Assembly: GCA_947178125.1 (NCBI GenBank)
Contig: CAMWXB010000001.1
Location: 1 to 64,000 of the forward strand
Source: an uncultured Lachnospiraceae bacterium
GTDB lineage: Bacteria > Bacillota > Clostridia > Lachnospirales > Lachnospiraceae
DNA: 64,000 nt
Direction: 5' to 3'
Of this stretch, positions 1,556 to 61,379 are shown piece by piece. Under the pieces are notes generated by a model that was given only the letters and a program-made list of their open reading frames with translations, did not search any database and was not told the origin of the DNA. Both the position numbers and the translations under genes were made by a program. The stretch's first letter is position 1. Each line of letters begins with the position of its first letter.

Positions 1556-1556
<1 letters not shown>
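1404..1556 (-). repeat. Family-1 structured intergenic element, copy F, with tandem duplication of its 5' half
   Basis: GGAAGAATGTCC/GGACATTCTTCC; AAGCGAAA/TTTCGCTT; AGAAGTTCTTAGATGCCG/CGGCATCTTAGAACTTCT; ~28-bp unit repeated. Confidence 0.9.
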
Positions 1557-3436
<1,880 letters not shown>

Positions 3437-13819: not shown

Positions 13820-15043
13820 TCATCTCCCTAATAAATACTCTACAATATTCTTCTGCCGGATACCGCCTCTGTTAAAGCCCATTAGCGAATCCATCGAAAG
13901 CACCATCTTCTCATAATTATCCGCAATCCGTTCCAGCGGACCGAATTCCCGTTCCATATTGTCCTCTGTCAAAAGATAACAGACTTGAATATAAATGCGT
14001 TCATCTGCCTTATTCGCAACAAAATCAATTTCCGCCGCATTCTGTTTTCCGACCGTTACCTGATATCCCCGGCGAAGCAGTTCCAAGTAAACAATATTTT
14101 CCAGTACAGCCCCAATATCATTATGCCGATATCCAAGCACTGCATACCGCAGCCCCAAATCCGACAAATAGTATTTCTCCTGTGTCTCTAACAGCCTTTT
14201 CCCTTTTATATCAAATCTCGGAACTTTGTATATCAAAAATGCGCTTTCCAAAAGTTTCAGATAATTATACACTGTTTCCGTACCGAGTTTCCGCCTTTGA
14301 TTTTTCAGAAAATCCGAAATTGTTTTTGCTGAAAAAATATTCCCGATATTGTCCATCAGGTATTGCGCAATACTTTCCAGAAGAGCCGTGTCCCTGACCT
14401 GATTTCTTCTAATCACATCCCTTAACAAAACGGAATGATAAATATCCAGAAGATATTGCGAAATCCGAATATCTTCCCATTTCATTTGATGGATTCCCGG
14501 CAGACCGCCGTATTTCAAATAATTGATAAAATTCTCCTGCTCCGACAACCCTGCTTCTTCATCATTTGCTTTGGTAAAATCCAGATATTCCGCAAAAGAC
14601 AACGGATATACCCGTATCTCAACATATCTGCCTGCAAGCAGCGTTGCCAGTTCTCCCGAAAGCAATTTCGCATTGGAACCTGTTACATAAATATCACAGT
14701 CAAAATCAACCCGAAACGAATTGACCGCTTTCTCCCACATCTCTACTTCCTGAACTTCATCGATTAAAATATATAATCTTCCATCCGCTTCCTTTGCCGC
14801 ATTGGTAACAGTTCCATACAGCGCTTTGTAATCCTTCCATTCCTCATAACGGAGAGATTCAAAATTCACATAAAAAATCCGTTCTTTCGGAACGCCTCTA
14901 TCGACCAGTTCATCCTGTATCTGCTTTAAGATGACACTCTTTCCGCATCTGCGCATACCCGTAATAACCTTAACAACAGGCTTATCAATAAAATCCCGTA
15001 TTTGATTCATATACTGCCGACGTACGATCATAACAATATCCAT
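13820..15043 (-). CDS. AAA ATPase with DUF4143 domain
   Basis: Walker A GMRRCGKS, Walker B LYILIDEVQ, DUF4143-like C-terminus; start possibly 15031. Confidence 0.92.
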   Translation of the reverse strand: MDIVMIVRRQYMNQIRDFIDKPVVKVITGMRRCGKSVILKQIQDELVDRGVPKERIFYVNFESLRYEEWKDYKALYGTVTNAAKEADGRLYILIDEVQEVEMWEKAVNSFRVDFDCDIYVTGSNAKLLSGELATLLAGRYVEIRVYPLSFAEYLDFTKANDEEAGLSEQENFINYLKYGGLPGIHQMKWEDIRISQYLLDIYHSVLLRDVIRRNQVRDTALLESIAQYLMDNIGNIFSAKTISDFLKNQRRKLGTETVYNYLKLLESAFLIYKVPRFDIKGKRLLETQEKYYLSDLGLRYAVLGYRHNDIGAVLENIVYLELLRRGYQVTVGKQNAAEIDFVANKADERIYIQVCYLLTEDNMEREFGPLERIADNYEKMVLSMDSLMGFNRGGIRQKNIVEYLLGR

Positions 15044-15060
15044 GCCTTTCTCTTAGCCTG
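15041..15060 (-). repeat. Family-2 core (partial copy)
   Basis: minus strand CAGGCTAAGAGAAAGGCATG upstream of the DUF4143 ATPase. Confidence 0.6.
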
Positions 15061-23296: not shown

Positions 23297-23545
23297 ACGA
23301 ATTATCTCTCCTTTTTGTATGCCATTCCATTCATAGCATTATTCTATAATATTTTTCAATTTAAAAAAGCATCCAACACCAATTGTTACCTGACGTTTAT
23401 TTTCGCGTTCATTTTTACTATAAAAAATAACTATTTGACAGACACTTTTATGCTATACTAGATTATAAAATCAGAGAATTTTCAATCGCAGGATTTCGTG
23501 CCGGGGCTCTTTTCAGTGCTGCACAAACCTGCAGGCGGAGTAAGA

Positions 23546-24235
23546 ATGAGTATGTACAAAATTTTAATGGTGGATGACGACCCAATGATATTAAAAGATA
23601 ATAAAACCTATTTTGACGCAATGGGATATGATGTCGTCTGTGCAGAAACAGCAGAAGAGGCAGAAAAAATCATTTTATCTAATGCGCTTGACTGTGTCAT
23701 TCTGGACGTGGACCTGCCCGATATGAACGGCTTCGCTTTGTGTGAAAAAATACGCGCAAAGACAGGTCTTCCTATTGTTTTCCTCTCCGGTTATACCGAA
23801 GAAGAAAACCGTATCCGTGGATTATCTATCGGCGGAGATGACTATGTGTGCAAACCTTACAGTCTAAGGGAACTGGAACTTCGGGTACTGGCACGCATCC
23901 GTTCCGGCAGAGCCGCCGAACCACCCAAAACGCTCACCTACGGACCGCTCTCCATCTGCCCTGCATCCTGCAGCGTAAGTTATGAGGCATGCTCTGTAGA
24001 TTTCTCTTCCTATGAATTTGATGTGTTGTATTTTCTTGCAAGGCATCCCAACGAAATTTATACACCGGAGCAGATTTATGATTCTGTCTGGAAAGCTCCG
24101 ATCAACAAAGGACAGAAATCCCTGCAGGTCATTATGGGGCGCATCCGCAAAAAGCTCTATGATATCTGCCCGGACCACGACTATATACAGACCAAACGCT
24201 ACAAGGGTTACTTGTTCGTTCCCGACCGGGAGTGA
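23546..24235 (+). CDS. OmpR-family response regulator transcription factor
   Basis: REC (DCVILDVDLPDMNGF) plus winged-helix C-terminus; RBS GGCGGAG before MSMYKILMVDDD. Confidence 0.93.
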   Translation: MSMYKILMVDDDPMILKDNKTYFDAMGYDVVCAETAEEAEKIILSNALDCVILDVDLPDMNGFALCEKIRAKTGLPIVFLSGYTEEENRIRGLSIGGDDYVCKPYSLRELELRVLARIRSGRAAEPPKTLTYGPLSICPASCSVSYEACSVDFSSYEFDVLYFLARHPNEIYTPEQIYDSVWKAPINKGQKSLQVIMGRIRKKLYDICPDHDYIQTKRYKGYLFVPDRE

Positions 24236-26082
24236 ACGCAGAAACCCACTATTCCGGCAAAGACTGACAACAACACAAATCCTGTTGCAGGAACAATATA
24301 ATTGTTCTTTTGGACGTCAGAACGCAACGGCTGCCCCCTCATCTGTTCTTTCTTTGAGGTACCGGAATTATCAGGGTCAATGTCTTCTTTATTGTCAGCG
24401 TCATTTATATTTCCGACATCGTTTTCTGCCTCTAAATAAGATGACTGCCCTGCATTAACAGCTTTTGACTCTGCATAAAACGATTGCTCCTCACGGGCAC
24501 CTGGAGGCTCTGAATAAAATGCCCCGCCTTCACTGGTATGTGTGGACTCTGAATGAGATGACATGCCCTCATTGGTATTGGCAGACTCTGAATGAGATGA
24601 CATACCCTCATTGGTATTGGCAGACTCTGAAAAGAATGACTCACCCTCATTTGCATTTGCGGCTTCTGTATTTGATGACTGCCCATCGCCAGCTGCGTCT
24701 GAGCCAATATCATCATCTCCATTTTTCGTCGGATTCATATCCGATGGAACCTTTGATTCGGCCTTGTCCAAATTGGTATTACCGTCTGCACCGGGAACCG
24801 GCCCTTCGTCTTCCAAAGGCGCATCATCGATGCTTTCCTGTGGCTTATCAGGCGGATTTGTAATGGAAGTTCCGCCGCCCCGGCTGCCGCCTATGTCAGC
24901 CACATACTCCAGGTTGTCCGCCGCATAGCAAAGCACATTGGAAAAATAACTGGTTCCGTTATCATTCCACTGCAGACGAATATATATATTCGAATATGTC
25001 ACCGCATCATACTGTTCAGATTTAACGGCAATAAAAAAGGTATCGCTGGTATCCGTTACGGTTTCTTCTTCGAACAGGAACCACCTTTCCCCATCGAAAG
25101 AATACTCTGTCATTACCGTAATCGGCAGATGTTCCTCCGGTTTCGTATACCAGCCCTGAAATGTATACAGGCTGCCGCATACCGACACCCTTACATCCGT
25201 AAAAGTCAGCGGATGATCATTATAAGCTACCGTACACAACGCCGGTTCTTTGGACGACGCATATAAAAAGGACCCCCGCACCTGAAAGCGCATCCTTTCC
25301 TCCTGCTGCATTTCAGTTCCTTCAAGGCTCCATGAGAGCGGAACCAACTCATTATGACTGACCTGCCCCTGACGATTGACCGTACAACTGATCTGCGATG
25401 GGAGTACATCATTTAACATTTGTCCTTTTTCCACAATAATGCAGATATGATTCTCATACATCACGAAGGGCGTATCTGCATAATGAATACTTCCTGTTAC
25501 GTGGCCGCCGCTGACGACCAGCCCTGCACCTTCTTCCTGCCATAATGCACATTGTCCGCTCTCCACTACAACACCCTGCATGGAAAGCATGCCTTTGTCT
25601 GCCACACAAAAGATACCTTTCTCATCAGGTTTTCCTGAAAAGATGAGATGATCATCACTCAAAAGGTCAATCTCCCCGGTTACAGTGATTGTATATTTAT
25701 CAGTATCAACAAAAACGGGAGGCATATTGATACCACTGGGACAAAAACTGTAATATCCTTCCAATACCACGTTATCCGTCAGCCTTACTGCACCGCCGAT
25801 GTTCTTATGTAATTCCAGCCATTCCAGCAGTTCTGTTCCGGTGGTCACAAAATCCGGTTCCGAAACAGTCTCTTCAGGCTCTTCCGGTTCCGATATAGTC
25901 TCTTCAGATTGTTCCGCTTCCGATGCAGACTCTTCAGACTGTTCCGCTTCCACATCGGTATCAGTTCTCACGTCAGATGTGTCAGGCTGTACATTAGCCA
26001 TTGCGGCAGCCGAATCGACTTTATACAATAAGAACACACTCAAAAACATCAGTGCAAATAAGAATTTACATTTATTTTTCAT
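24208..26082 (-). CDS. Exported/membrane-anchored repeat-rich protein of unknown function
   Basis: signal peptide, acidic Ser/Glu repeats, central beta-rich region, ~13-aa imperfect repeats, C-terminal TM helix. Confidence 0.8.
   Translation of the reverse strand: MKNKCKFLFALMFLSVFLLYKVDSAAAMANVQPDTSDVRTDTDVEAEQSEESASEAEQSEETISEPEEPEETVSEPDFVTTGTELLEWLELHKNIGGAVRLTDNVVLEGYYSFCPSGINMPPVFVDTDKYTITVTGEIDLLSDDHLIFSGKPDEKGIFCVADKGMLSMQGVVVESGQCALWQEEGAGLVVSGGHVTGSIHYADTPFVMYENHICIIVEKGQMLNDVLPSQISCTVNRQGQVSHNELVPLSWSLEGTEMQQEERMRFQVRGSFLYASSKEPALCTVAYNDHPLTFTDVRVSVCGSLYTFQGWYTKPEEHLPITVMTEYSFDGERWFLFEEETVTDTSDTFFIAVKSEQYDAVTYSNIYIRLQWNDNGTSYFSNVLCYAADNLEYVADIGGSRGGGTSITNPPDKPQESIDDAPLEDEGPVPGADGNTNLDKAESKVPSDMNPTKNGDDDIGSDAAGDGQSSNTEAANANEGESFFSESANTNEGMSSHSESANTNEGMSSHSESTHTSEGGAFYSEPPGAREEQSFYAESKAVNAGQSSYLEAENDVGNINDADNKEDIDPDNSGTSKKEQMRGQPLRSDVQKNNYIVPATGFVLLSVFAGIVGFCVHSRSGTNK
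24440..24690 (-). repeat. Imperfect 39-bp coding tandem repeats (13-aa SESANTNEGMSSH-type)
   Basis: repeated TGAGATGACATGCCCTCATTGGTATTGGCAGACTCTGAA-type units. Confidence 0.85.
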
Positions 26083-30870: not shown

Positions 30871-30947
30871 CCATGCCTTTCTCTCAACCTGCGATATTTG
30901 AGCCGCAGGCACAAATTCGCGGTTGAAAAATCTCTGATTTTTCAACC
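30871..30947 (-). repeat. Family-2 leader repeat (full copy)
   Basis: minus strand GGTTGAAAAATCAGAGATTTTTCAACCGCGAATTTGTGCCTGCGGCTCAAATATCGCAGGTTGAGAGAAAGGCATGG. Confidence 0.85.
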
Positions 30948-30989
30948 TATTCTCCTCCTGATTGCAGCAACTCCCGCCGAATGAAAAAA

Positions 30990-35069: not shown

Positions 35070-35176
35070 CCGCTTTTTAGGCATTTTCCAGCGTGAGAAA
35101 GACTTGCTTCACAAGTCGTAGAACTTCTTAGCGAAACAGTCTTTGCTGTGAGCCTTAGAACTTCTCTTCACACTAA
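35070..35176 (-). repeat. Family-1 structured intergenic element, copy B
   Basis: GAGAATGCC arm, AGCGTGAGAA/TCTTCACACT outer arms, GACTTG/CAAGTC hairpin, AGAACTTCT repeats. Confidence 0.8.
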
Positions 35177-35180
35177 TAAT

Positions 35181-35257
35181 CATGCCTTTCCCACAACCTG
35201 CGATATTTGCGCCGCAGGCACAAATTCGCGATTGAAAAATCTCTGATTTTTCAATCT
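35181..35257 (-). repeat. Family-2 leader repeat (full copy)
   Basis: minus strand ATTGAAAAATCAGAGATTTTTCAATCGCGAATTTGTGCCTGCGGCGCAAATATCGCAGGTTGTGGGAAAGGCATG. Confidence 0.85.
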
Positions 35258-41184: not shown

Positions 41185-41261
41185 GATTGAAAAATCCGTA
41201 ATCTTTCAATCGCGATCTGCGTCGGCAGCGCAGGTATCGCAGGCTAAGAGAAAGGCATAGG
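41185..41261 (+). repeat. Family-2 leader repeat (pyrG copy)
   Basis: GATTGAAAAATCCGTAATCTTTCAATCGCGATCTGCGTCGGCAGCGCAGGTATCGCAGGCTAAGAGAAAGGCATAGG directly before pyrG. Confidence 0.8.
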
Positions 41262-41268
41262 TATTCAT

Positions 41269-42876
41269 ATGGCTGTTAAATATGTATTCGTAACCGGCGG
41301 TGTCGTTTCCGGGTTGGGAAAAGGAATTACCGCCGCTTCTTTAGGCAGATTATTAAAAGCACGCGGTTATAAAGTGACCATGCAGAAATTTGACCCTTAT
41401 ATCAATATCGATCCGGGTACGATGAATCCAATTCAGCACGGTGAAGTCTTTGTTACGGAGGACGGCACGGAAACCGATTTGGATCTCGGACATTACGAAC
41501 GGTTCATTGATGAAAATCTGGATAAAAATTCCAACGTTACAACGGGTAAAGTATACTGGTCCGTTCTTCAGAAAGAGCGCCGTGGTGATTATGGCGGTGG
41601 AACCGTTCAGGTCATCCCGCATATCACCAATGAGATCAAGAGCCGTTTTTACCGGAATTTTACGGATGAGGAGACAAGAATTGCCATCATCGAAGTCGGC
41701 GGCACGGTCGGCGATATCGAAAGCCAGCCATTCCTGGAGTCCATCCGTCAGTTCCAGCATGAAATCGGCAAAGAAAACGCAATCCTGATTCATGTCACCC
41801 TGATTCCATATCTGAGAGCCTCTCAGGAAATGAAGACCAAGCCGACACAGGCAAGCGTCAAGGAATTACAGGGAATGGGAATCTGGCCCGATATTATTGT
41901 ATGTCGCAGCGAATATCCGTTAGATCAGGGATTGAAAGATAAGATCGCTCTGTTCTGTAATGTTCCGAACAACCATGTATTACAAAATCTCGACGTAGAA
42001 TATTTATATGAAGCCCCTCTTGCCATGGAGAAGGAACACTTGGCTCAGGTTGCCTGTGAATGTCTGAATCTGGAATGTCCTGAACCCGACCTGACCGATT
42101 GGAAGGCCATGGTAGAATCTTTGAGAACACCTACTGACGAGATCACGATTGCGCTTGTAGGCAAATATACGCAGCTTCACGACGCCTATATCAGCGTTGT
42201 AGAAGCCCTGAAACACGGCGGCATTTCCAACCGCTGCATCGTTGACCTGAAATGGGTTGATTCCGAAACCGTTACGGCGGACAATGTCGCAGAACAATTG
42301 GGAGATGTCAACGGCATTCTTGTTCCCGGCGGCTTTGGTGACAGAGGCATCGACGGAATGCTCCATGCCATCCGCTATGCACGGGAGAATAAAGTCCCCT
42401 ATCTGGGGCTCTGCCTCGGCATGCAGTTGTCCATTGTGGAATTTGCGAGAAATGTTGTCGGCTATAACGATGCCCACAGCATCGAATTGAATCCTTCCAC
42501 AACACATCCTGTTATCGCACTGATGCCTGACCAGAGCGACGTGGAAGATATCGGCGGCACTTTGCGTCTCGGCTCTTATCCATGCGTTTTGGACAAAAAT
42601 TCGAAAGCATTCCAGTTATACGGGGAAGAGACGATACATGAAAGGCATAGACACCGTTATGAAGTCAATAACGACTACCGCACCGTTTTAACGGAGCACG
42701 GCATGAAATTATCCGGTCTTTCACCGGACGGCCGCATCGTTGAAATGTGTGAGCTGCCTGAGCATCCATTCTTCGTTGCGACACAGGCGCACCCGGAACT
42801 GAAATCCAGACCGAACAGGCCGCATCCTCTGTTCAGAGGCTTTATTGCCGCCTCTCTGGAACATAAAAAGAACTGA
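41269..42876 (+). CDS. pyrG: CTP synthase
   Basis: [30 protein letters not shown]; GATase domain. Confidence 0.99.
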
Positions 42877-46482: not shown

Positions 46483-48765
46483 TTATTCCAGAGAGTTCAA
46501 TTTATCAACAAGTTTCTGGATATCCCGCATGGATACGTTGCCGCCAAAGCTGACCGGTCCGCGGAGCGGCATATACTTCATCATCGCCGCATTCATCTCA
46601 TCGGAAATTGCCTCCGCCGCAGCATCGCCGTCTTCCTCTTTCTTCTCACTGCCAAAAATTCCCTTTTCCATCAGCGGTTTAACGATTTCCCATGCCTTCG
46701 GATCCGCCATCACATCGCCCATCGTTGTATCCGTCGTATAGACGAATGGAATTTTTACAGTCGATTCCACAGTGACCGTCTTGCCAAGAACGATATCTCT
46801 GGAGGATTTACCGACCAGAATATCAAATTCGCCCGTCTCAACATGCCAGTCGTGAATCCTGACACTATAATAAGCAAATGCCCTTTTATCTAATGTAAAG
46901 GTAACGGTCTTTGTCTCTCCCGGCGCCAGTTCCACTTTTGCAAAATCGCGCAGTTCTTTTACCGGACGGATGACCGTGCTTTCCTTATCCGCAACATAGA
47001 GCTGTACCACTTCTTTTCCGGCCATACTGCCCGTATTGGTCACATCTACCGTAACGGTCAGCGTATCCGTATCCTTCATACTTTCCTTATCGACCGTCAG
47101 ATTAGCATATTCGAAAGTCGTATAGGACAACCCATAACCGAACGGGAAAAGAACATCCATCTTTTTCTTATCATAATAGCGGTATCCTACGAAAATGCCT
47201 TCCCGGTATTCCACCATATCGCCCTCGCCAAAATAGGAGAGATAGGACGGATTGTCTTCCAGTCTGAGCGGGAACGTCTCGGGAAGCTTCGCGCTCGGAT
47301 TGACTTTACCGAACAGGATATCGCATACCGCACCGCCTACTGCCTGGCCGCCCAGATAAGCTTCGACAATGCCTTTCACCTGATCTGCCCAGGGCATTTC
47401 CACCGGGGAACCGTTATGCAGTACAACAATGGTATTCGGCTGTACCGCCGCTACTTTTTCAATCAATTCATTCTGGCAGTTCGGCATACGCATATGTTGT
47501 CTGTCAAAACCTTCAGACTCAAACGCATCAGGAAGACCCGCAAAAATGACTGCTGCCTTTGCCTTCTTAGCCGCTTCTACCGCTTCCTCTAACAGCTTTG
47601 TATCCGTCTCGTCCACATCATCACGATAGCCCTGCGCATATACGATATTGGACATTCCCTCTGCCGCGTCCATCGCAGAAGTTATCTTATGGCTATTGAT
47701 ATGGGAACTTCCGCCGCCCTGATATCTCGGCTGCTTCGCATATTTACCGATAAACGCGATATCATCCTTTTCATTCAGCGGAAGGACTCCTTCGTTTTTC
47801 AGCAGAACGATTGTCTCCTCAGCTACTTTTCTTGCCATCTCATGGTCTTTATCTTTATCCCAGACAGCATTTTTATCCCGGTTCTCTTCATAGCGGAACA
47901 CAATATTCAAAATACGCTCTACCGCTGCGTCCACAACGCATTCTTTCAGATTGCCGCTCTGTACCGCACCGACGATGAGTTTGTCATTTGCGCCGAGAGA
48001 AGTCGGCATTTCCAAATCGAGGCCTGCCTTTAAGTCTTCCACTCTGTTATTGACAGCGCCCCAGTCACTCATCACATATCCGTCAAATCCCCACTGTTCG
48101 CGCAGGGTATCCGTCAGATATTTACGGTTTTCCGCCGCATAGACACCGTTGATTTTATTATAGGAACACATGACAGCCCATGGTTTCTGTTTTCTCACTG
48201 CGCCCTCAAAAGCCGCCAGATAAATTTCGTTCAAAGTCCTTTCATCCACGCGGGAATCCCCGGACATTCTTCTTGTTTCCTGATTGTTCGCCAGAAAATG
48301 CTTGATGCTTGTACCCACGTTCTTGCTTTGTACGCCTTTGATCAGGGCGCCTGCCATTTCCGACGCAACGAGCGGGTCTTCCGAATAGTACTCAAAATTA
48401 CGGCCGCACAACGGAGAACGCTTGATGTTCACCGCAGGCCCCAAAATAACGCTGACACCTTCTGCCTGACATTCATTACCGAGAACCTCGCCCATCTGTG
48501 TCAGAAGTTCCCTGTTAAAAGAAGCTGCCGTTCCGCATCCTGCCGGAAAACAGACTGCCTTGATGCTGTCATTGACGCCAAGGTGGTCGCCTTCCTGGTC
48601 CTGTTTTCTAAGACCGTGCGGTCCGTCTGAGACCATGCTGGCCGGAATCCCCAGTCTTGCCACGGCTTCCGTATGCCAGAAATCCGCGCCGGAACACATA
48701 GCCGCCTTTTCCTCCAAAGTCATCTGCGCTACCAGCTTCTTGATTTTTTCTGCTGTCATCCCCAT
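46483..48765 (-). CDS. Glycoside hydrolase family 3 beta-glucosidase
   Basis: GH3 fold (VMSDWGAVNNRVEDLKAGLDLEMP), fibronectin III-like C-terminus. Confidence 0.96.
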   Translation of the reverse strand: MGMTAEKIKKLVAQMTLEEKAAMCSGADFWHTEAVARLGIPASMVSDGPHGLRKQDQEGDHLGVNDSIKAVCFPAGCGTAASFNRELLTQMGEVLGNECQAEGVSVILGPAVNIKRSPLCGRNFEYYSEDPLVASEMAGALIKGVQSKNVGTSIKHFLANNQETRRMSGDSRVDERTLNEIYLAAFEGAVRKQKPWAVMCSYNKINGVYAAENRKYLTDTLREQWGFDGYVMSDWGAVNNRVEDLKAGLDLEMPTSLGANDKLIVGAVQSGNLKECVVDAAVERILNIVFRYEENRDKNAVWDKDKDHEMARKVAEETIVLLKNEGVLPLNEKDDIAFIGKYAKQPRYQGGGSSHINSHKITSAMDAAEGMSNIVYAQGYRDDVDETDTKLLEEAVEAAKKAKAAVIFAGLPDAFESEGFDRQHMRMPNCQNELIEKVAAVQPNTIVVLHNGSPVEMPWADQVKGIVEAYLGGQAVGGAVCDILFGKVNPSAKLPETFPLRLEDNPSYLSYFGEGDMVEYREGIFVGYRYYDKKKMDVLFPFGYGLSYTTFEYANLTVDKESMKDTDTLTVTVDVTNTGSMAGKEVVQLYVADKESTVIRPVKELRDFAKVELAPGETKTVTFTLDKRAFAYYSVRIHDWHVETGEFDILVGKSSRDIVLGKTVTVESTVKIPFVYTTDTTMGDVMADPKAWEIVKPLMEKGIFGSEKKEEDGDAAAEAISDEMNAAMMKYMPLRGPVSFGGNVSMRDIQKLVDKLNSLE

Positions 48766-48769
48766 TAAC

Positions 48770-48844
48770 CATTCCTTTCTCTCAACCTGCGACATTTGCT
48801 GCCGCAAGGCACAAATTCACCTGTGAAAAATTTATTTTTCACAG
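48770..48844 (-). repeat. Family-2 leader repeat (copy before the GH3 gene)
   Basis: minus strand CTGTGAAAAATAAATTTTTCACAGGTGAATTTGTGCCTTGCGGCAGCAAATGTCGCAGGTTGAGAGAAAGGAATGG. Confidence 0.85.
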
Positions 48845-48900
48845 TATATACCTCCTTATGATATCCTGCATTCCTACCCTTGCAACATCCCATCCATAAC

Positions 48901-48990
48901 TAGCGTGAGAAAGATTTGCCTTCGGCAAATCGTAGAACTTCTTCACGAAACAGCCCTTGCTGTGAGTGATTAGAAGTTCTTCTCACGCTA
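48901..48990 (-). repeat. Family-1 structured intergenic element, copy C
   Basis: outer arms TAGCGTGAGAA/TTCTCACGCTA; GATTTGCC-TTC-GGCAAATC; AGAACTTCT/AGAAGTTCT; ACAGC-CCTT-GCTGT. Confidence 0.9.
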
Positions 48991-49336: not shown

Positions 49337-50518
49337 TTAGACTGTCAATGTCGCCGCCGCTTTTTTCAAACGTTCCAAAGCTTCTTTCAGCGTGGCGCGG
49401 GGACAGGCGATATTGACCCGTTCAAATCCTTCTCCGGCCTTTCCGAAAATAACGCCGTCATCCAGCCAGAGTTTCGCCTTCTGCGCAATAAACTGTTCCA
49501 GTTCTTTCTCACTCAGCCCAAGTTCCCGGCAGTCCAGCCAGACTAAGTATGTCCCTTCCGGCTCTATCAGTTTGATCTGCGGAATGTTCTCTTCTAAATA
49601 GTCTCTGACAAAATCGAGATTCCCTTTCAGATATTCTTTTAACTGCTCCAGCCATTCCCTGCCGCCCTCATAGGCCGCCTGACAGGCATGGAGTCCGAGC
49701 ATGTTGACCTCACTGTATCCGACCGCTGACATTTTTCGTTCAAATACCCGGCGTAATTCAGGATTCGGAATCCAGACATTGGAAACCTGGAGCCCCGCGA
49801 GATTGAACGTCTTGCTGGGTGCGGTGCAGACAATGCTGATATCCTGGAACCGCTCATCCACCGTTGTCAGCACATGATGCACAAATCCCGGATACACGAA
49901 ATCGTTATGAATCTCATCACTGACGATCTTGACATCATATTTCAGGCAGATTTCCCCGATACGCTGCAGTTCCTCCTTCGTCCATACCCGGCCGACAGGA
50001 TTATGCGGACTGCACAATATGAACAGCTTCACTTTTTCCTGCACGATTTTTTTCTCAAAATCCTCCAGGTCCATCTCATAATGCCCGTCTTTTAACACCA
50101 GTTCATTGTTAACGAGCTTCCTGTTATTGTCCCGGATGACCGCACTGAAAGGATAATAAACGGGCTGTTGGATCAGAACGCCGTCGCCTTCTTTCGTAAA
50201 TGCCGAAACCGCCGTCGCAATGGCAAAAACAATGCCCGGCGTTTTTACAAGCCAGTCTTTTTCTACCTTCCAGTCAAAATAAGTCTCATACCATTTCGAA
50301 AGCGCCTGGAAATAATCATCTTTACTATCCGTATAGCCAAAAATGCCAAAAGCCGCATCCTTCTGAATCCGTTCCGTAATACAGGATGCCGTCCTGAAAT
50401 CCATATCCGCTACCCACAAAGGCAGAATGTCCGCCGGCATTCCCCGCTCAACCGCAAAATCATATTTCAGGCAGTCACTGCCCCTTCTTTCTATCTGCTC
50501 ATCAAAATCGTATTTCAT
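49337..50518 (-). CDS. MalY/PatB family aminotransferase (cystathionine beta-lyase-like)
   Basis: LPLWVADMDFRTASCI; CSPHNPVGRVWTKEEL; SKTFNLAGLQVSN. Confidence 0.95.
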   Translation of the reverse strand: MKYDFDEQIERRGSDCLKYDFAVERGMPADILPLWVADMDFRTASCITERIQKDAAFGIFGYTDSKDDYFQALSKWYETYFDWKVEKDWLVKTPGIVFAIATAVSAFTKEGDGVLIQQPVYYPFSAVIRDNNRKLVNNELVLKDGHYEMDLEDFEKKIVQEKVKLFILCSPHNPVGRVWTKEELQRIGEICLKYDVKIVSDEIHNDFVYPGFVHHVLTTVDERFQDISIVCTAPSKTFNLAGLQVSNVWIPNPELRRVFERKMSAVGYSEVNMLGLHACQAAYEGGREWLEQLKEYLKGNLDFVRDYLEENIPQIKLIEPEGTYLVWLDCRELGLSEKELEQFIAQKAKLWLDDGVIFGKAGEGFERVNIACPRATLKEALERLKKAAATLTV

Positions 50519-50527
50519 AATAATGAC

Positions 50528-50633
50528 CATACCTTTCTCTCAACCTGTGAACTTTGTGCGACGCTGAAAACGTCTTGATGCCAATATTCGCAGGACAAAT
50601 AAATTCGTCTGCGAAAAATCTTTGATTTAACAA
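50528..50633 (-). repeat. Family-2 leader repeat (diverged copy)
   Basis: minus strand CGAATTTATTTGTCCTGCGAATATTGG...CACAGGTTGAGAGAAAGGTATGG before malY/patB. Confidence 0.7.
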
Positions 50634-50634
50634 T

Positions 50635-51780
50635 CTAACCAAATGCCTGCTGCAAGTCCGCAATGATATCCTGTACATCCTCCAGACCGACGGACATCCG
50701 GAGCAGCGTTTCATCAATTCCCCGCGCGCGCCGTTTCTCATCGGGTACATCCGCATGGGTCTGTGTCACCGGATAGGTGATCAGACTCTCCGTACCGCCG
50801 AGACTTTCCGCAAACCGTATCAGTTTCACCCGTTCCAGGACGTGATACACGGTTTCCCGCGAATCCACATGAAACGCCAGCATACCACCGAAGCCCCGGC
50901 TCTGCCGTTTCGTAATTTCCTGCCCCGGATGTCCATCCAATCCGATATACAGCACATCCCTCACTTCTTCCTGCGTTTGAAGCCATTTTGCGAGTGCCAG
51001 CGCATTTTCCTGATGCTTCTCCATACGAACGGCCAGCGTTTTCATGCCCCGCAAGATCAGCCAGCTGTCAAAAGGCGCCAGCCCTGAGCCAATCGTCTTA
51101 AAAATGGCCCGGAGTTCCTGCACAATATCTTCTCTGTTCATCACAAGAAACCCGCCCAACGTATCATTATGTCCTTCCAGATATTTCGTCGCGCTGTGAA
51201 TAACGATATCCGCGCCAAGATCAAGCGGGTTCTGGAAATACGGTGTCAAAAAAGTATTATCGACCGCGAGCAGGCAGCCCTTTTCCCGGGCGATTTTACT
51301 GACCGCCGCAATATCCGTCACCTGCATCATGGGGTTAGTCGGCGTTTCCAGATAAATAAGCTTCGTATTTTCCTGCAGGGCCGCTCTGATCTGCTCCAAA
51401 TCCGAAGTATCCACATATGTAACGCTAATGCCGTTTTTTTCATTGATCAGGCGAAACTGGCGGATGGTACCGCCATATAAATCATCCGTCGCCACGATAT
51501 GGTCTCCCGGCCTGAACAGTTCCATAAACGCACTGACCGCCGCCATTCCGGACGAAAATGCGAGTGCCTCCCGTCCGTGCTCCAAATCCGCCACGATACG
51601 CTCTGCCTCTTCTCTCGTAGGATTCTGCACTCTGGAATAATCATAGCCCGTGCTCCGGCCGACACCCGGATGTGCATATGCCGCTGTCTGATAAATCGGA
51701 AAACTGATGCTGCCCGTGTTGTCTATCTCTTTTCTCTGCCCGCTGCCGTGAATACACACGGTATCCAATTTGTACTCCAT
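50635..51780 (-). CDS. PLP-dependent trans-sulfuration enzyme (cystathionine gamma-synthase/lyase type)
   Basis: DYSRVQNPTREEAERIVADLEHG; YLETPTNPMMQV; SATKYLEGHNDTLGG. Confidence 0.95.
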   Translation of the reverse strand: MEYKLDTVCIHGSGQRKEIDNTGSISFPIYQTAAYAHPGVGRSTGYDYSRVQNPTREEAERIVADLEHGREALAFSSGMAAVSAFMELFRPGDHIVATDDLYGGTIRQFRLINEKNGISVTYVDTSDLEQIRAALQENTKLIYLETPTNPMMQVTDIAAVSKIAREKGCLLAVDNTFLTPYFQNPLDLGADIVIHSATKYLEGHNDTLGGFLVMNREDIVQELRAIFKTIGSGLAPFDSWLILRGMKTLAVRMEKHQENALALAKWLQTQEEVRDVLYIGLDGHPGQEITKRQSRGFGGMLAFHVDSRETVYHVLERVKLIRFAESLGGTESLITYPVTQTHADVPDEKRRARGIDETLLRMSVGLEDVQDIIADLQQAFG

Positions 51781-53849: not shown

Positions 53850-53982
53850 ACAAACAAGTTTGTCAGGGAGAATGCCGTTTTTTAGGCATTCTCCAGGGTG
53901 AGAAAGATTTGCTCCGCAAATCGTAGAACTTCTTGGCGTTTCACCCTTTGGTGAAACGTCTTTAGAAGTTCTTCTCACCCTA
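53850..53982 (-). repeat. Family-1 structured intergenic element, copy D
   Basis: GACAAAC/GTTTGTC; GGAGAATGCC/GGCATTCTCC; AGGGTGAGAA/TTCTCACCCT; GATTTGC/GCAAATC; AGAACTTCT/AGAAGTTCT; CGTTTCACC/GGTGAAACG. Confidence 0.92.
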
Positions 53983-54675
53983 GTCGAGTCCTGCAATCTC
54001 ATCCACAGGCAGCGACATGACAACGCCCTGCGCCGGGCTCTGCATCCCGCATTTCTGACCGATTGCCTGCATGATCGCCAGCTTATCCTCTTTCTGCGCA
54101 AGGATGATAACGACTTCCCGTTCCTGCTGTACATGAATTTTCCAGAACTTCAACGATTCTTCATTCCCGACACGCCTGCTGTGAAATACCGTTCCGCCGG
54201 ATGCGCCCACAGGCCTTGCGGCATCCATGACTTCGGCGCTGTATCCCTGATTTACGATTGCCATGATCATACTGTATTGATATTCTTTCACTCTGACCTC
54301 ATTCCTTTCTTCAGGCGCCTGCCCGCTCTCTTCCCGCACTGCTTCCATCAACTGGACAATATGCCCGCTGCCGCCGGAAAGTGTAAGCGTAAAGGCTATT
54401 CCGGTATTGGGCATTCCAAGATGCAGTTTCTTCCGCATCTTTTTCAGTGTATCGTCCGCGCATGGCTTCGGCATCATGCTCATTAAAATCATCTTATCGA
54501 TACCGTCAAGGCCGAGCATATCCATTACTTCGCTGGTCGCCGTGCCCTGCGCATGAAAAAGGTGCTGCACGGCTATCTTTTCCTGTTTCAGCAAATCTTC
54601 CGCTTTCCTGACCAGTTTCGGTGTCGCAATGAGAAATAACATTCGGTAGGCCGACTTTTTACTATGACTCGTCAT
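53980..54675 (-). CDS. PII-like (GlnB/NRII-type) protein with two PII-like halves
   Basis: two repeats with MILMSMMPKP/GIAFTLTLSGGSG and YSMIMAIVNQGYSAEVMDAARPVGASGGTVFHSRR; adjacent to DUF1538. Confidence 0.82.
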   Translation of the reverse strand: MTSHSKKSAYRMLFLIATPKLVRKAEDLLKQEKIAVQHLFHAQGTATSEVMDMLGLDGIDKMILMSMMPKPCADDTLKKMRKKLHLGMPNTGIAFTLTLSGGSGHIVQLMEAVREESGQAPEERNEVRVKEYQYSMIMAIVNQGYSAEVMDAARPVGASGGTVFHSRRVGNEESLKFWKIHVQQEREVVIILAQKEDKLAIMQAIGQKCGMQSPAQGVVMSLPVDEIAGLD

Positions 54676-56469: not shown

Positions 56470-57900
56470 ATGGACAGAAGTAAAGAAATCAGAAAGTTGT
56501 GTGAGGAACAGAATATCCGTATGATCGATTTTAAAATGACGGATATCGACGGCCGCTGGCGTCATATTACGATTCCGGTAGAACGGTTCAATGAGGACAC
56601 TTTTACCTATGGCATCGGTTTTGACGGTTCCAATTACGGGTATGCGCCTGTTGAAAAAAGCGATATGGTATTTTTACCGGACCCGGATACCGCTTATGTG
56701 GATCCTTTTGCGGATGTACCGACGCTGACAATGTGCGGTAATGTATGCACGATCGGAAAGGGTGAAAATAAACCTTTTGACCAGTATCCGAAAAATGTGA
56801 GCCTGCGGGCGGTAGAATATATGAAAGAGAGCGGTATCGCCGACCGGATGATCATCGGGCCGGAATTTGAGTTCTATCTGTTAGACCGCGTTCGTTTTGA
56901 AGTGACCCCGCGCAGATGCGGCTACTGGGTTGACACAAGACAGGCGGACTGGAACTGCAATCTGGAAGTTCCGGGAAACAACGGTTATGAAGTGCCGGCA
57001 AAAGGCGGTTATCATGTGGCAGCACCGCAGGATGTCGGATATGACCTGCGAAGCCGTATGTGTATGGCAATGGAGGACTGGGGTATCAAAGTAAAATACC
57101 ATCACCATGAAGTAGGCGGCCCCGGCCAGATGGAAATCGAGGTCGAACTTGCAGATATGCCGGAAATGGCCGACAATACGATGATCATCAAATATATCAT
57201 TAAAAATATGGCGGCGCAGGAAGGCAAGACAGCCACTTTCATGCCGAAGCCGATCTATCAGGAAGCCGGAAACGGCCTGCATGTACATATGCTGTTAATG
57301 AAAGACGGCAAGCCGCTGTTCTATGATGAGAACGGTTATTCCGGCCTCAGCCGCACGGCACATTATTTTATCGGCGGCCTGTTGAAACATATCGCATCCC
57401 TGTGTGCATTCACCAATCCGTCCACGAACTCTTTCAAACGTCTCGTACCGGGATATGAAGCGCCTGTCACAGTCGGCTACGCAACTTCCAACCGCAGTGC
57501 GGTCATCCGCATTCCGGCCTATGCGAAGTCCCCGGAAGCGAAAAGATTCGAACTGCGCAACCCTGACGCGACGGCTAATCCTTATTATGCTTATGCGGCA
57601 ATTCTGATGGCGGGACTGGATGGTATCGAGAATCAGATAGACCCTGCTGAGAATGGCTGGGGGCCTTATGATTTCAATCTTTATACACTTTCCGAAGAAG
57701 AACAGAAAAAAATCAAAGGACTGCCGAAATCGCTGGGCGAAGCGTTAGATGCACTGGAGGCCGACCACGATTATCTGACAAAAGGCGGCGTTTTCCCGCA
57801 GCGGCTCATTGATGTGTGGGTAGCGCGTAAACGCGAAGAGCTGAAAAAGATGGAACAGATTCCGAATCCGGCTGAATTTAAGGCGTATTATGATCTCTAA
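56470..57900 (+). CDS. glnA: Glutamine synthetase (type I)
   Basis: GFDGSNYGYAPVEKSDMVFLPD; NGLHVHMLL; RSAVIRIPA. Confidence 0.97.
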   Translation: MDRSKEIRKLCEEQNIRMIDFKMTDIDGRWRHITIPVERFNEDTFTYGIGFDGSNYGYAPVEKSDMVFLPDPDTAYVDPFADVPTLTMCGNVCTIGKGENKPFDQYPKNVSLRAVEYMKESGIADRMIIGPEFEFYLLDRVRFEVTPRRCGYWVDTRQADWNCNLEVPGNNGYEVPAKGGYHVAAPQDVGYDLRSRMCMAMEDWGIKVKYHHHEVGGPGQMEIEVELADMPEMADNTMIIKYIIKNMAAQEGKTATFMPKPIYQEAGNGLHVHMLLMKDGKPLFYDENGYSGLSRTAHYFIGGLLKHIASLCAFTNPSTNSFKRLVPGYEAPVTVGYATSNRSAVIRIPAYAKSPEAKRFELRNPDATANPYYAYAAILMAGLDGIENQIDPAENGWGPYDFNLYTLSEEEQKKIKGLPKSLGEALDALEADHDYLTKGGVFPQRLIDVWVARKREELKKMEQIPNPAEFKAYYDL

Positions 57901-58030
57901 AAGCGCGAGAAGAAGTTCTAAAGACGTCCCGCCATTGGACGGGACGTCAAGAACTTCTACGATTTGTTGTGCAAATTTTGCACAGCAAATCTTTCTCGCG
58001 CAGGAGAATGCCCGTCAGGGCATTCTCCAT
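57901..58030 (+). repeat. Family-1 structured intergenic element, copy E
   Basis: GCGCGAGAA/TTCTCGCGC; AGAAGTTCT/AGAACTTCT; GACGTCCCG/CGGGACGTC; GATTTG/CAAATC; GGAGAATGCCC/GGGCATTCTCC. Confidence 0.92.
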
Positions 58031-58781: not shown

Positions 58782-58822
58782 CTTCCTTTCCTGCTCAACC
58801 CGTGGAAAATTTATTTTTCACA
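58782..58822 (-). repeat. Family-2 leader repeat (minimal copy)
   Basis: minus strand CTGTGAAAAATAAATTTTCCACGGGTTGAGCAGGAAAGG before the permease. Confidence 0.6.
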
Positions 58823-59623
58823 GCGCATGCCTCTCAAATTCCATCCGGCTTCCAGCATCTCGACTATGGCACGGTCGCACTCACCATCCGCTGCTCTTAA
58901 TATACACCCCTGTTCTGTAAATTGCAGGTGCCCCTTCCACTTTTCCGGAATATCCGCCTTTTCTGTTCTTACAAAAAACATATGATACCATTGCACTTCC
59001 CCTGCCGGTTTATGGCTTTCTAAAACAATTTTTCCATCGGCAAACCGATACACCTCATCTGCGATGGCATCTACAAGATAAGGTTCATGGCAGGACATTA
59101 AAATTGTCACATGATGCTTTTGCAGTTCCTGTATTTTCTGAATAAATACCTGTTGGGACATCACATCCTGCCCGGACAACGGCTCATCCAGCAACAAAAT
59201 ATCCGGTTCTTTTAACAGAGCCTGTATTACGCCGATTTTCTGCAGACTTCCCTTTGACAGATATTTCATGGGAATATCCAGCATATTCGATACAAAAAAT
59301 TCTTCCGCCAGTTCGTGTAAGCATGTTTCTAATGCCGCATCTTCCAGATTATCCATCTTTCCCATATACGACAAATATCGCCTTGCCGTAAGATTCATTT
59401 TGGGAAAATGTTCGGGCACATAATGAATCAATTTCCCTTTCTCAAGACAGACGCATCCTTTCGTCGGTCTTACGAGTCCGGCAATTATTTTTAACAATGT
59501 GCTTTTCCCACAGCCGTTTTGTCCCGTAAAGGCCAGCGACTGCCCCTGTTCTATCGTGAAATGAATATCATTCAAAATAATTTTTTTGTCGTATTCTTTT
59601 ACAATGTGTTCCAATGCGATCAT
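58811..59623 (-). CDS. ABC transporter ATP-binding protein
   Basis: GQNGCGKSTLLKIIAGL, LSKGSLQKIGVIQALL, ILLLDEPLSG. Confidence 0.95.
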   Translation of the reverse strand: MIALEHIVKEYDKKIILNDIHFTIEQGQSLAFTGQNGCGKSTLLKIIAGLVRPTKGCVCLEKGKLIHYVPEHFPKMNLTARRYLSYMGKMDNLEDAALETCLHELAEEFFVSNMLDIPMKYLSKGSLQKIGVIQALLKEPDILLLDEPLSGQDVMSQQVFIQKIQELQKHHVTILMSCHEPYLVDAIADEVYRFADGKIVLESHKPAGEVQWYHMFFVRTEKADIPEKWKGHLQFTEQGCILRAADGECDRAIVEMLEAGWNLRGMRCEK

Positions 59624-60458: not shown

Positions 60459-61345
60459 ATCTTCTCGTGCCTTTCCTTTTGCTTATGACCACCGATGCAC
60501 ACGATCACTTTTCCACTGCACTCCATCGCCGCATCTTCCATAATAACTTCATCCACACTGTCCAAAATGATTCTTCCGGATCTTGGATTTTTGACCGACA
60601 TCACATTGCCGATGATATCCGCTTCCACATCGGAATACTCAAAAGCAAGGTCTGTTCCTTCCATCGTACAGTTTATCAGCTTCAGGTTTTTGCAATAGCA
60701 AAGCGGCTGTGTCCCAATGATCTTACATTCAATGAGCGTAAGCCCGTCGGAAAACCAGCCAAGATATTCACCCTTTACGAGACTGTTCGATACCGTTACA
60801 TTTTTACTGTGCCAGAAAGCATCTTTCGTATCCAGCGTACAGTTCTCAATCACAAGATTCTCCATATATTGAAAAGAATATTTTCCGGTTATCTTAATAT
60901 CCGACAGCGTGACGCCTTTACTGTCGAAAAAAAGATATTCCGAATTGACCGTACAATCTTTCATCGTGATACCCGTACATTTCCAGCCAAATTCCTGCGA
61001 ATCGATATCGCAATCGGTCAACAGGATATTATTACACTCCCGTACCGCCTTGATTCCATGCAACCTGCTCCCCGTAATCTCTCCATCGTCCGCATACCAG
61101 ATTGCTGCACGCGTCAGTTCATCCATGGTGGAATCTGCCAGGGAAAAGCCTTTCGCATGCCACAGCGGATAGCGGAGCGAAAAACTGCATTCCTCTACAG
61201 CGATATTGCGCGCTTCTTTCAAAACAGATTCGCCGTCGGCAGGGCCTGCAAAATTACACTTACTGACCCGGCTATTCTGTAAATGATAAAGCGCCCGCTC
61301 TTCATCGAACTGCCGTTCTGTAATAATCTTGTCGAATTGATTCAT
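60455..61345 (-). CDS. DUF3737 family protein (predicted right-handed beta-helix)
   Basis: repetitive NCTLDTKDAFWHSKNVTVSNS-type coils. Confidence 0.88.
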   Translation of the reverse strand: MNQFDKIITERQFDEERALYHLQNSRVSKCNFAGPADGESVLKEARNIAVEECSFSLRYPLWHAKGFSLADSTMDELTRAAIWYADDGEITGSRLHGIKAVRECNNILLTDCDIDSQEFGWKCTGITMKDCTVNSEYLFFDSKGVTLSDIKITGKYSFQYMENLVIENCTLDTKDAFWHSKNVTVSNSLVKGEYLGWFSDGLTLIECKIIGTQPLCYCKNLKLINCTMEGTDLAFEYSDVEADIIGNVMSVKNPRSGRIILDSVDEVIMEDAAMECSGKVIVCIGGHKQKERHEKI

Positions 61346-61357
61346 ATTATATTAATA

Positions 61358-61379
61358 CCATGCCTTTCTCTTAACCTGT
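61358..61379 (-). repeat. Family-2 core (partial copy)
   Basis: minus strand ACAGGTTAAGAGAAAGGCATGG upstream of the DUF3737 gene. Confidence 0.65.

Follow-up and report, generated by a model that had tools for sequence, protein, structure and literature searches.

A modular interspersed repeat of Lachnospiraceae whose 3' end may act as a portable ribosome-binding site

Promoters, attenuators, stop codons and RNase sites are among the signals known to arrive with interspersed repeats. Among described elements, the closest analogue of the repeat analyzed here appears to be the pneumococcal BOX element. BOX elements (boxA-boxB-boxC) of Streptococcus pneumoniae are modular, form hairpins and often supply stop codons (PMC3049150). 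Like our repeat, they are small intergenic interspersed repeats of a Bacillota genome, with copies that contain the upstream gene's stop codon; BOX copies can also affect downstream expression (PMC3049150), as ours would. By contrast, BOX ends resemble those of an IS, whereas our repeat lacks terminal inverted repeats (there is no complementarity between GRTTGAAAAATC at its 5' end and GGCATGGTTATTA at its 3' end). Moreover, the passages of that paper drawn on here do not describe BOX as a Shine-Dalgarno carrier and find no good Shine-Dalgarno candidates for BOX-encoded ORFs (PMC3049150), whereas the 3' end of our repeat reads as a ribosome-binding site (RBS) at fixed spacing. RUP is a MITE proposed to be mobilized by IS630-Spn1 (PMC3049150); RUP-type MITEs and our repeat are both short, non-autonomous and rich in strong secondary structure (PMC3049150), but the latter has no terminal inverted repeats and its TA duplication is only presumed. 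REP/BIME sequences with RAYT likewise join a hairpin to a short conserved tail and occur as tandem and dispersed copies, yet they lie mainly 3' of genes, whereas our repeat lies 5' of start codons in a genome devoid of a Y1 transposase. IS630/mariner-type insertion is specific for TA, of which the TA junction of our repeat is reminiscent. In Staphylococcus aureus the Shine-Dalgarno helix is extended toward the start codon, and the spacing exceeds that of E. coli by 2-3 nt (PMC13009471). Our motif can similarly be aligned to the 16S complement on the start-codon side and has a longer spacing, but its Shine-Dalgarno segment and GG are split by CAT, and the predicted duplex gain is small or absent. 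A description of the hairpin-box repeat was not found in the open literature searched, an absence that is no proof of novelty.

Copies and architecture of the repeat

The window, that is the whole 64,000-nt stretch of Lachnospiraceae DNA analyzed, contains seven matches to the core CAGGYTRAGAGAAAGGCATGG at ≤3 mismatches, with 0 expected by chance. The 4.14 Mb genome (G000) holds 113 core copies (57 forward, 56 reverse) and no match to a reversed control pattern; its copies are dispersed in the genome of this gut-type member of the Lachnospiraceae. Seven of the eight window sites named by the original prediction are matches, located correctly to within one base, and the eighth (58782), described there as degenerate, is a decayed copy in which the hairpin CTGTGAAAAATAAATTTTCCACGG is followed by GTTGAGCAGGAAAGG. 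As predicted, all seven matches face a co-directional gene. They lead to genes for a DUF4143 ATPase, a YegS-type lipid kinase, a ROK glucokinase, PyrG, a GH3 protein, a PatB-type lyase and a DUF3737 protein (Table 1). The hairpins said to precede full copies are likewise present, hairpin 1 as well as hairpin 2.

Table 1. Copies of the repeat, their parts and related features in the window
Feature	Position	Strand	Basis
Core/box CAGGTTGAGAGAAAGGCATGG of full copy; AGAAAGG is the Shine-Dalgarno segment	30871..30891	-	exact match
Hairpin 2, GCGAATTTG-TGCCTGCGGCT-CAAATATCGC	30891..30920	-	family covariation
Hairpin 1, GGTTGAAAAATC-AGA-GATTTTTCAACC	30921..30947	-	sequence
TA junction and putative displaced native Shine-Dalgarno AGGAGGAGAATA, upstream of element	30948..30959	-	sequence
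Second full copy: core 35180-35200, hairpin 2 35200-35229, hairpin 1 35230-35256	35180..35256	-	
Full copy before pyrG: hairpin 1 41185-41211, hairpin 2-like segment, core 41240-41260, ATG 41269	41185..41271	+	
Full copy before GH3 gene: box 48757-48789, hairpin 1 48821-48844, ATG 48757-48759	48757..48856	-	
Copy before PatB-family C-S lyase gene: box GAAAGGTATGGTCATTATTATG 50516-50537, longer hairpin 2 variant, decayed hairpin 1 50609-50635	50516..50635	-	
Hairpin-free box before AAA_14/DUF4143 ATPase gene, GAAAGGCATGGATATTGTTATG	15029..15060	-	
Hairpin-free box before DUF3737 gene	61343..61378	-	
Decayed copy: hairpin 1 remnant, then GTTGAGCAGGAAAGG, before gene of unknown family	58798..58833	-	
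Isolated decayed hairpin 1 with TA on its 5' side, TA/GATTATAAAATCAGAGAATTTTCAATC	23461..23487	+	
Second-family palindrome sites	55-141, 35089-35175, 48925-48990, 53894-53988, 57895-58012		

A full module consists of TA, hairpin 1 (GRTTGAAAAATC-AGA-GATTTTTCAAYC), hairpin 2 (GCGAATTTG-apex-CAAATATCGC) and AGGTTGAGAGAAAGGCATGGTTATTA, with a variable hairpin 2 apex that is either GCCTGCGGC or a longer inner hairpin. CAAAnnTCG, the 3' arm of hairpin 2, precedes most boxes in this genome, and hairpin 1 about a third. The arms covary. The covariation score of hairpin 2 is 0.128, above all shuffles (0.071; 0/500) and all slid versions (at most 0.061); across genera one of its pairs changes from GC to AU in nine sequences and another appears as AU, CG and GC. 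Hairpin 1 arms change together as well (GGTTG/CAACC, GATTG/CAATC, CTGTG/CACAG and GTGTG/CACAC), so that both hairpins carry the compensatory stem changes of a structured RNA or DNA element. The combination of hairpin and box also occurs in records of other Lachnospiraceae, namely Herbinix, Roseburia and Anaerocolumna.

Close examination of the module ends reveals a TA directly 5' of hairpin 1 in 36/39 forward copies, counted with the palindrome's GC-flanked opposite-strand matches left out. The 3' end reads TTATTA. Eight modules abut the TAG that closes an upstream ORF of 80 or more codons, tandem modules start at TTATTA/G, and the base after TTATTA is G in 17/23 copies that are not start-proximal, which fits, but does not prove, a TA duplication at TAG. 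Module insertion may duplicate TA; no exact empty site was found. Since G is the first base of the element, a copy entering at a TAG would leave the stop intact. As to what might move it, the genome (93% complete) gave no match to PF01797, the Y1 (TnpA-REP) transposase family, and 5 control genomes did; a RAYT/REP origin was rejected on this ground. Spread by phages or plasmids was also rejected: the 20-base pattern occurs in only 2 viral contigs and matches no plasmid. Two partial matches lie in unannotated faecal phage records.

Start codons and native Shine-Dalgarno sequences

For 72 of 99 inspected copies an ORF start lies at most 25 nt downstream on the same strand; in the opposite orientation the figure is 12/99. 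A further 22/99 have an ORF start within 300 nt, and 5/99 have none. The usual layout is GAAAGG(C/T)ATGG, 8 nt and the start codon, with a modal gap of 8 nt after CATGG. AGAAAGG had been placed 8-11 nt from the start codon, but it most often stands 13 nt away (CATGG plus 8 nt; 44/72 start-proximal copies), as seen at pyrG, PatB and the AAA ATPase. That the repeat provides the RBS holds in part. It is an oriented element that supplies a Shine-Dalgarno-like sequence on the coding strand, at a constrained distance from starts; the copies at 30871 and 35180, however, lie 61 nt and about 95 nt from their gene starts and thus are not the immediate RBS of these genes. Copies lying away from starts, copies pointing in both directions and arms failing to covary had been named as observations that would speak against the element, and examination of each leaves it standing. 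Initiation at the ATG within CATGG, in place of the gene ATG, was also considered and rejected, since in-frame stops before the gene ATG are not depleted (10 observed, 6.5 expected) and the spacing varies between 7 and 8 nt among orthologs.

Directly upstream of the element we noticed what look like the genes' own Shine-Dalgarno sequences: AGGAGGAGAATA at the YegS-like kinase, AAGGAGGTATATA at the GH3 gene (a native AAGGAGG just upstream of the copy) and AAAGAGGAATAATA at rsmG. In the sister genomes G006 and G051, rsmG lacks the element and carries AAAAGAGGTATATAG in the matching position. At pyrG, AAAAGAAAGAAGACAG precedes the element in G000 and TTAAGAAAGAGGCGGAC stands directly before the ATG in G051; here, too, the native Shine-Dalgarno was probably displaced. 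The rsmG and pyrG comparisons are suggestive of empty sites, although not base-exact. A clean empty-site pair was not obtained from the nearest orthologs, which are too diverged for base-exact junctions (about 53% identical at degV). The hairpin repeat seems to have landed between original ribosome-binding sites and start codons, and, judging from sequence, many unrelated genes seem to have acquired a repeat as their translation signal.

These arrangements suggest how such a takeover could proceed. The element, laid out as TA, hairpin 1, hairpin 2 with its variable apex and CAGGYTGAGAGAAAGGCATGGTTATTA, would carry a complete ribosome-binding site at its 3' end. In a copy between a native Shine-Dalgarno and the start codon, the repeat's AGAAAGG would take over the Shine-Dalgarno role at a distance of 13 nt from that codon; the hairpins would decay afterwards while selection keeps the box. 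If this is true, a repeat end that is a full, fixed-spacing RBS has replaced the native one at housekeeping genes, a clear takeover of translation signals.

The box across the genus and its possible pairing with 16S rRNA

GAAAGGYATGG-N8-ATG occurs in 60/60 genomes of the genus, at 1 to 77 copies (control 0-1 per strand). An exact 20-base version is found in at least 116 stretches of the species collection, the majority of which carry the label Lachnospiraceae or that of one of its genera, and cultured Lachnospiraceae strains 10-1 and C-53 are among the matches. The 17-mer is present in 2/246 sampled genomes across the order. In low-copy genomes the box recurs at the same genes: pfkA, leuS, thrC, argS, uppP and glgB. 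Among orthologs chosen for diverged flanks, GAAAGG (-19 to -14) and TGG (-11 to -9) are kept in 14-16/16 pfkA leaders and 13-17/20 leuS leaders, with flanking columns mostly about 40-50% identical. Such retention is the pattern expected of selection on an initiation signal, one that would cover more than the Shine-Dalgarno hexamer. Some genus members carry GATGAGAGGAATG instead of the box at leuS (leaders L374, L375 and L379), so the box may be lacking at a usually boxed gene. Several sister species have AGAAAGGCATGGAC(A/G)(A/G)GCAG-ATG at pyrG (L276, L280 and L285), that is the box with a different, shared 8-mer. Hairpin-free boxes are found in many genes and genomes, including tight operon gaps. 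Two things are superimposed: a short bipartite box of putative ribosome-binding function and a lineage-expanded modular interspersed repeat. The box is taken to be an older, genus-wide bipartite RBS motif, which the repeat would either have captured or have been the source of. As a family-wide motif it could serve start-site annotation and expression work in gut Lachnospiraceae. It also raises the question of how the ribosome responds to the conserved TGG and to the longer spacing.

Bacillota 16S rRNA carries CCUUUCU at its 3' end, to which AGAAAGG is complementary; this general Bacillota sequence was used here, as a search of assemblies gave no 16S rRNA. Aligned to the full 16S complement, the box can be written AGAAAGG-(CAT)-GGTnAT, in which the conserved TGG may make a second 16S contact. 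The predicted pairing gain is 1.1 kcal/mol for repeat-type boxes, weak support for such a contact, and 0.24 for the conserved low-copy set, so that bulged extended pairing is unsupported as a full explanation of TGG in the latter. It is doubtful, if conceivable, that GAAAGGYATGG-N8-AUG is a distinct bipartite initiation signal in Lachnospiraceae, read by bulged extended pairing or a trans factor and spread by a mobile element.

Spreading repeat, regulatory leader or common consensus

Taking together copy number, orientation, spacing, TA junction, covariation and retention at orthologous genes, we consider it probable that the repeat is a small, modular, mobile-type interspersed repeat of Lachnospiraceae whose 3' end would work as a portable RBS. 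The original prediction instead proposed a dispersed leader module that could co-regulate unrelated genes. A true regulatory leader, in which hairpins and Shine-Dalgarno act together as an RNA switch or as an operator bound by a protein, hiding or exposing AGAAAGG across a regulon, would make sense of a hairpin 2 that covaries and adjoins the Shine-Dalgarno, and of an alternative helix, CCUGCG/CGCAGG, that is energetically preferred in some copies. That helix, however, lacks covariation beyond shuffles and was rejected as a Shine-Dalgarno-sequestering switch. Nor do the downstream genes cohere functionally: 60 downstream proteins fall into 75 Pfam families, none represented in more than three, and the genes include pyrG, ackA, dxs, apgM, recG, polA, cmk, thiD and scpB. 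Many boxes have no hairpin, and full copies also follow stop codons or stand in tandem arrays, which, with the TA junction, points to a mobile-type repeat rather than a dedicated leader. There is no Rfam family match either: no known cis-regulatory RNA or sRNA reached the gathering score in the window, and a scan of seven loci gave a tRNA and sub-threshold hits only. We regard regulation of this kind as unlikely. Few boxed genes are common to G000, G006 and G017, as expected from spread and turnover but also from repeated de novo origin. Along with the incoherent downstream genes, this small overlap suits a repeat that spreads and whose RBS is tolerated or retained better than it suits a regulon.

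Independent origin deserves weighing in its own right. Boxes might have arisen separately as a common RBS consensus, the hairpin repeat being another family that happens to end in a box, as would be in keeping with hairpin-free boxes in tight operon gaps, with box retention at orthologous genes and with the enrichment in Lachnospiraceae loci, also outside the searched pattern, of AGAAAGG followed by (C/T)ATGG. Against this, unrelated genes share an extended identity over CAGGYTGA...TTATTA, and most G000 boxes are preceded by CAAAnnTCG remnants of hairpin 2; both argue for common descent of most copies in this genome, and make an origin by consensus alone improbable. The box could also be the target of a trans-acting factor through which a regulon is controlled post-transcriptionally, for example an sRNA with CCAUGCCUUUC or a protein that binds RNA. 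Conservation does exceed the Shine-Dalgarno, with TGG at -11 to -9 kept at pfkA and leuS, and C and U at -13 would both pair with a G in an sRNA; but no candidate factor was found, position -13 is free to vary among leuS orthologs and -12 varies in part, and the genes are unrelated, which leaves this reading very unlikely.

Other repeats lie close by. A second dispersed family is a long imperfect palindrome, GTGTGAAGAGAAGTTCT...CACGCTGG, present in both orientations. A palindromic repeat separates the 35180..35256 copy from the ROK glucokinase gene, and the second-family palindrome at 35166 begins right after the TTATTA end of the first repeat; the palindrome family and the hairpin-box repeat may have common insertion sites. 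Finally, two short tandem arrays were seen in the window: a 28-nt unit, TCTTAGAACTTCTTTTCGCTTTCGGCAT, repeated three times at 1472-1556, between ORFs 139-1299 and 1556-3424, and a 30-nt repeat, also in three tandem copies, at 25853-25942 within a coding region (24208-26082, minus strand).
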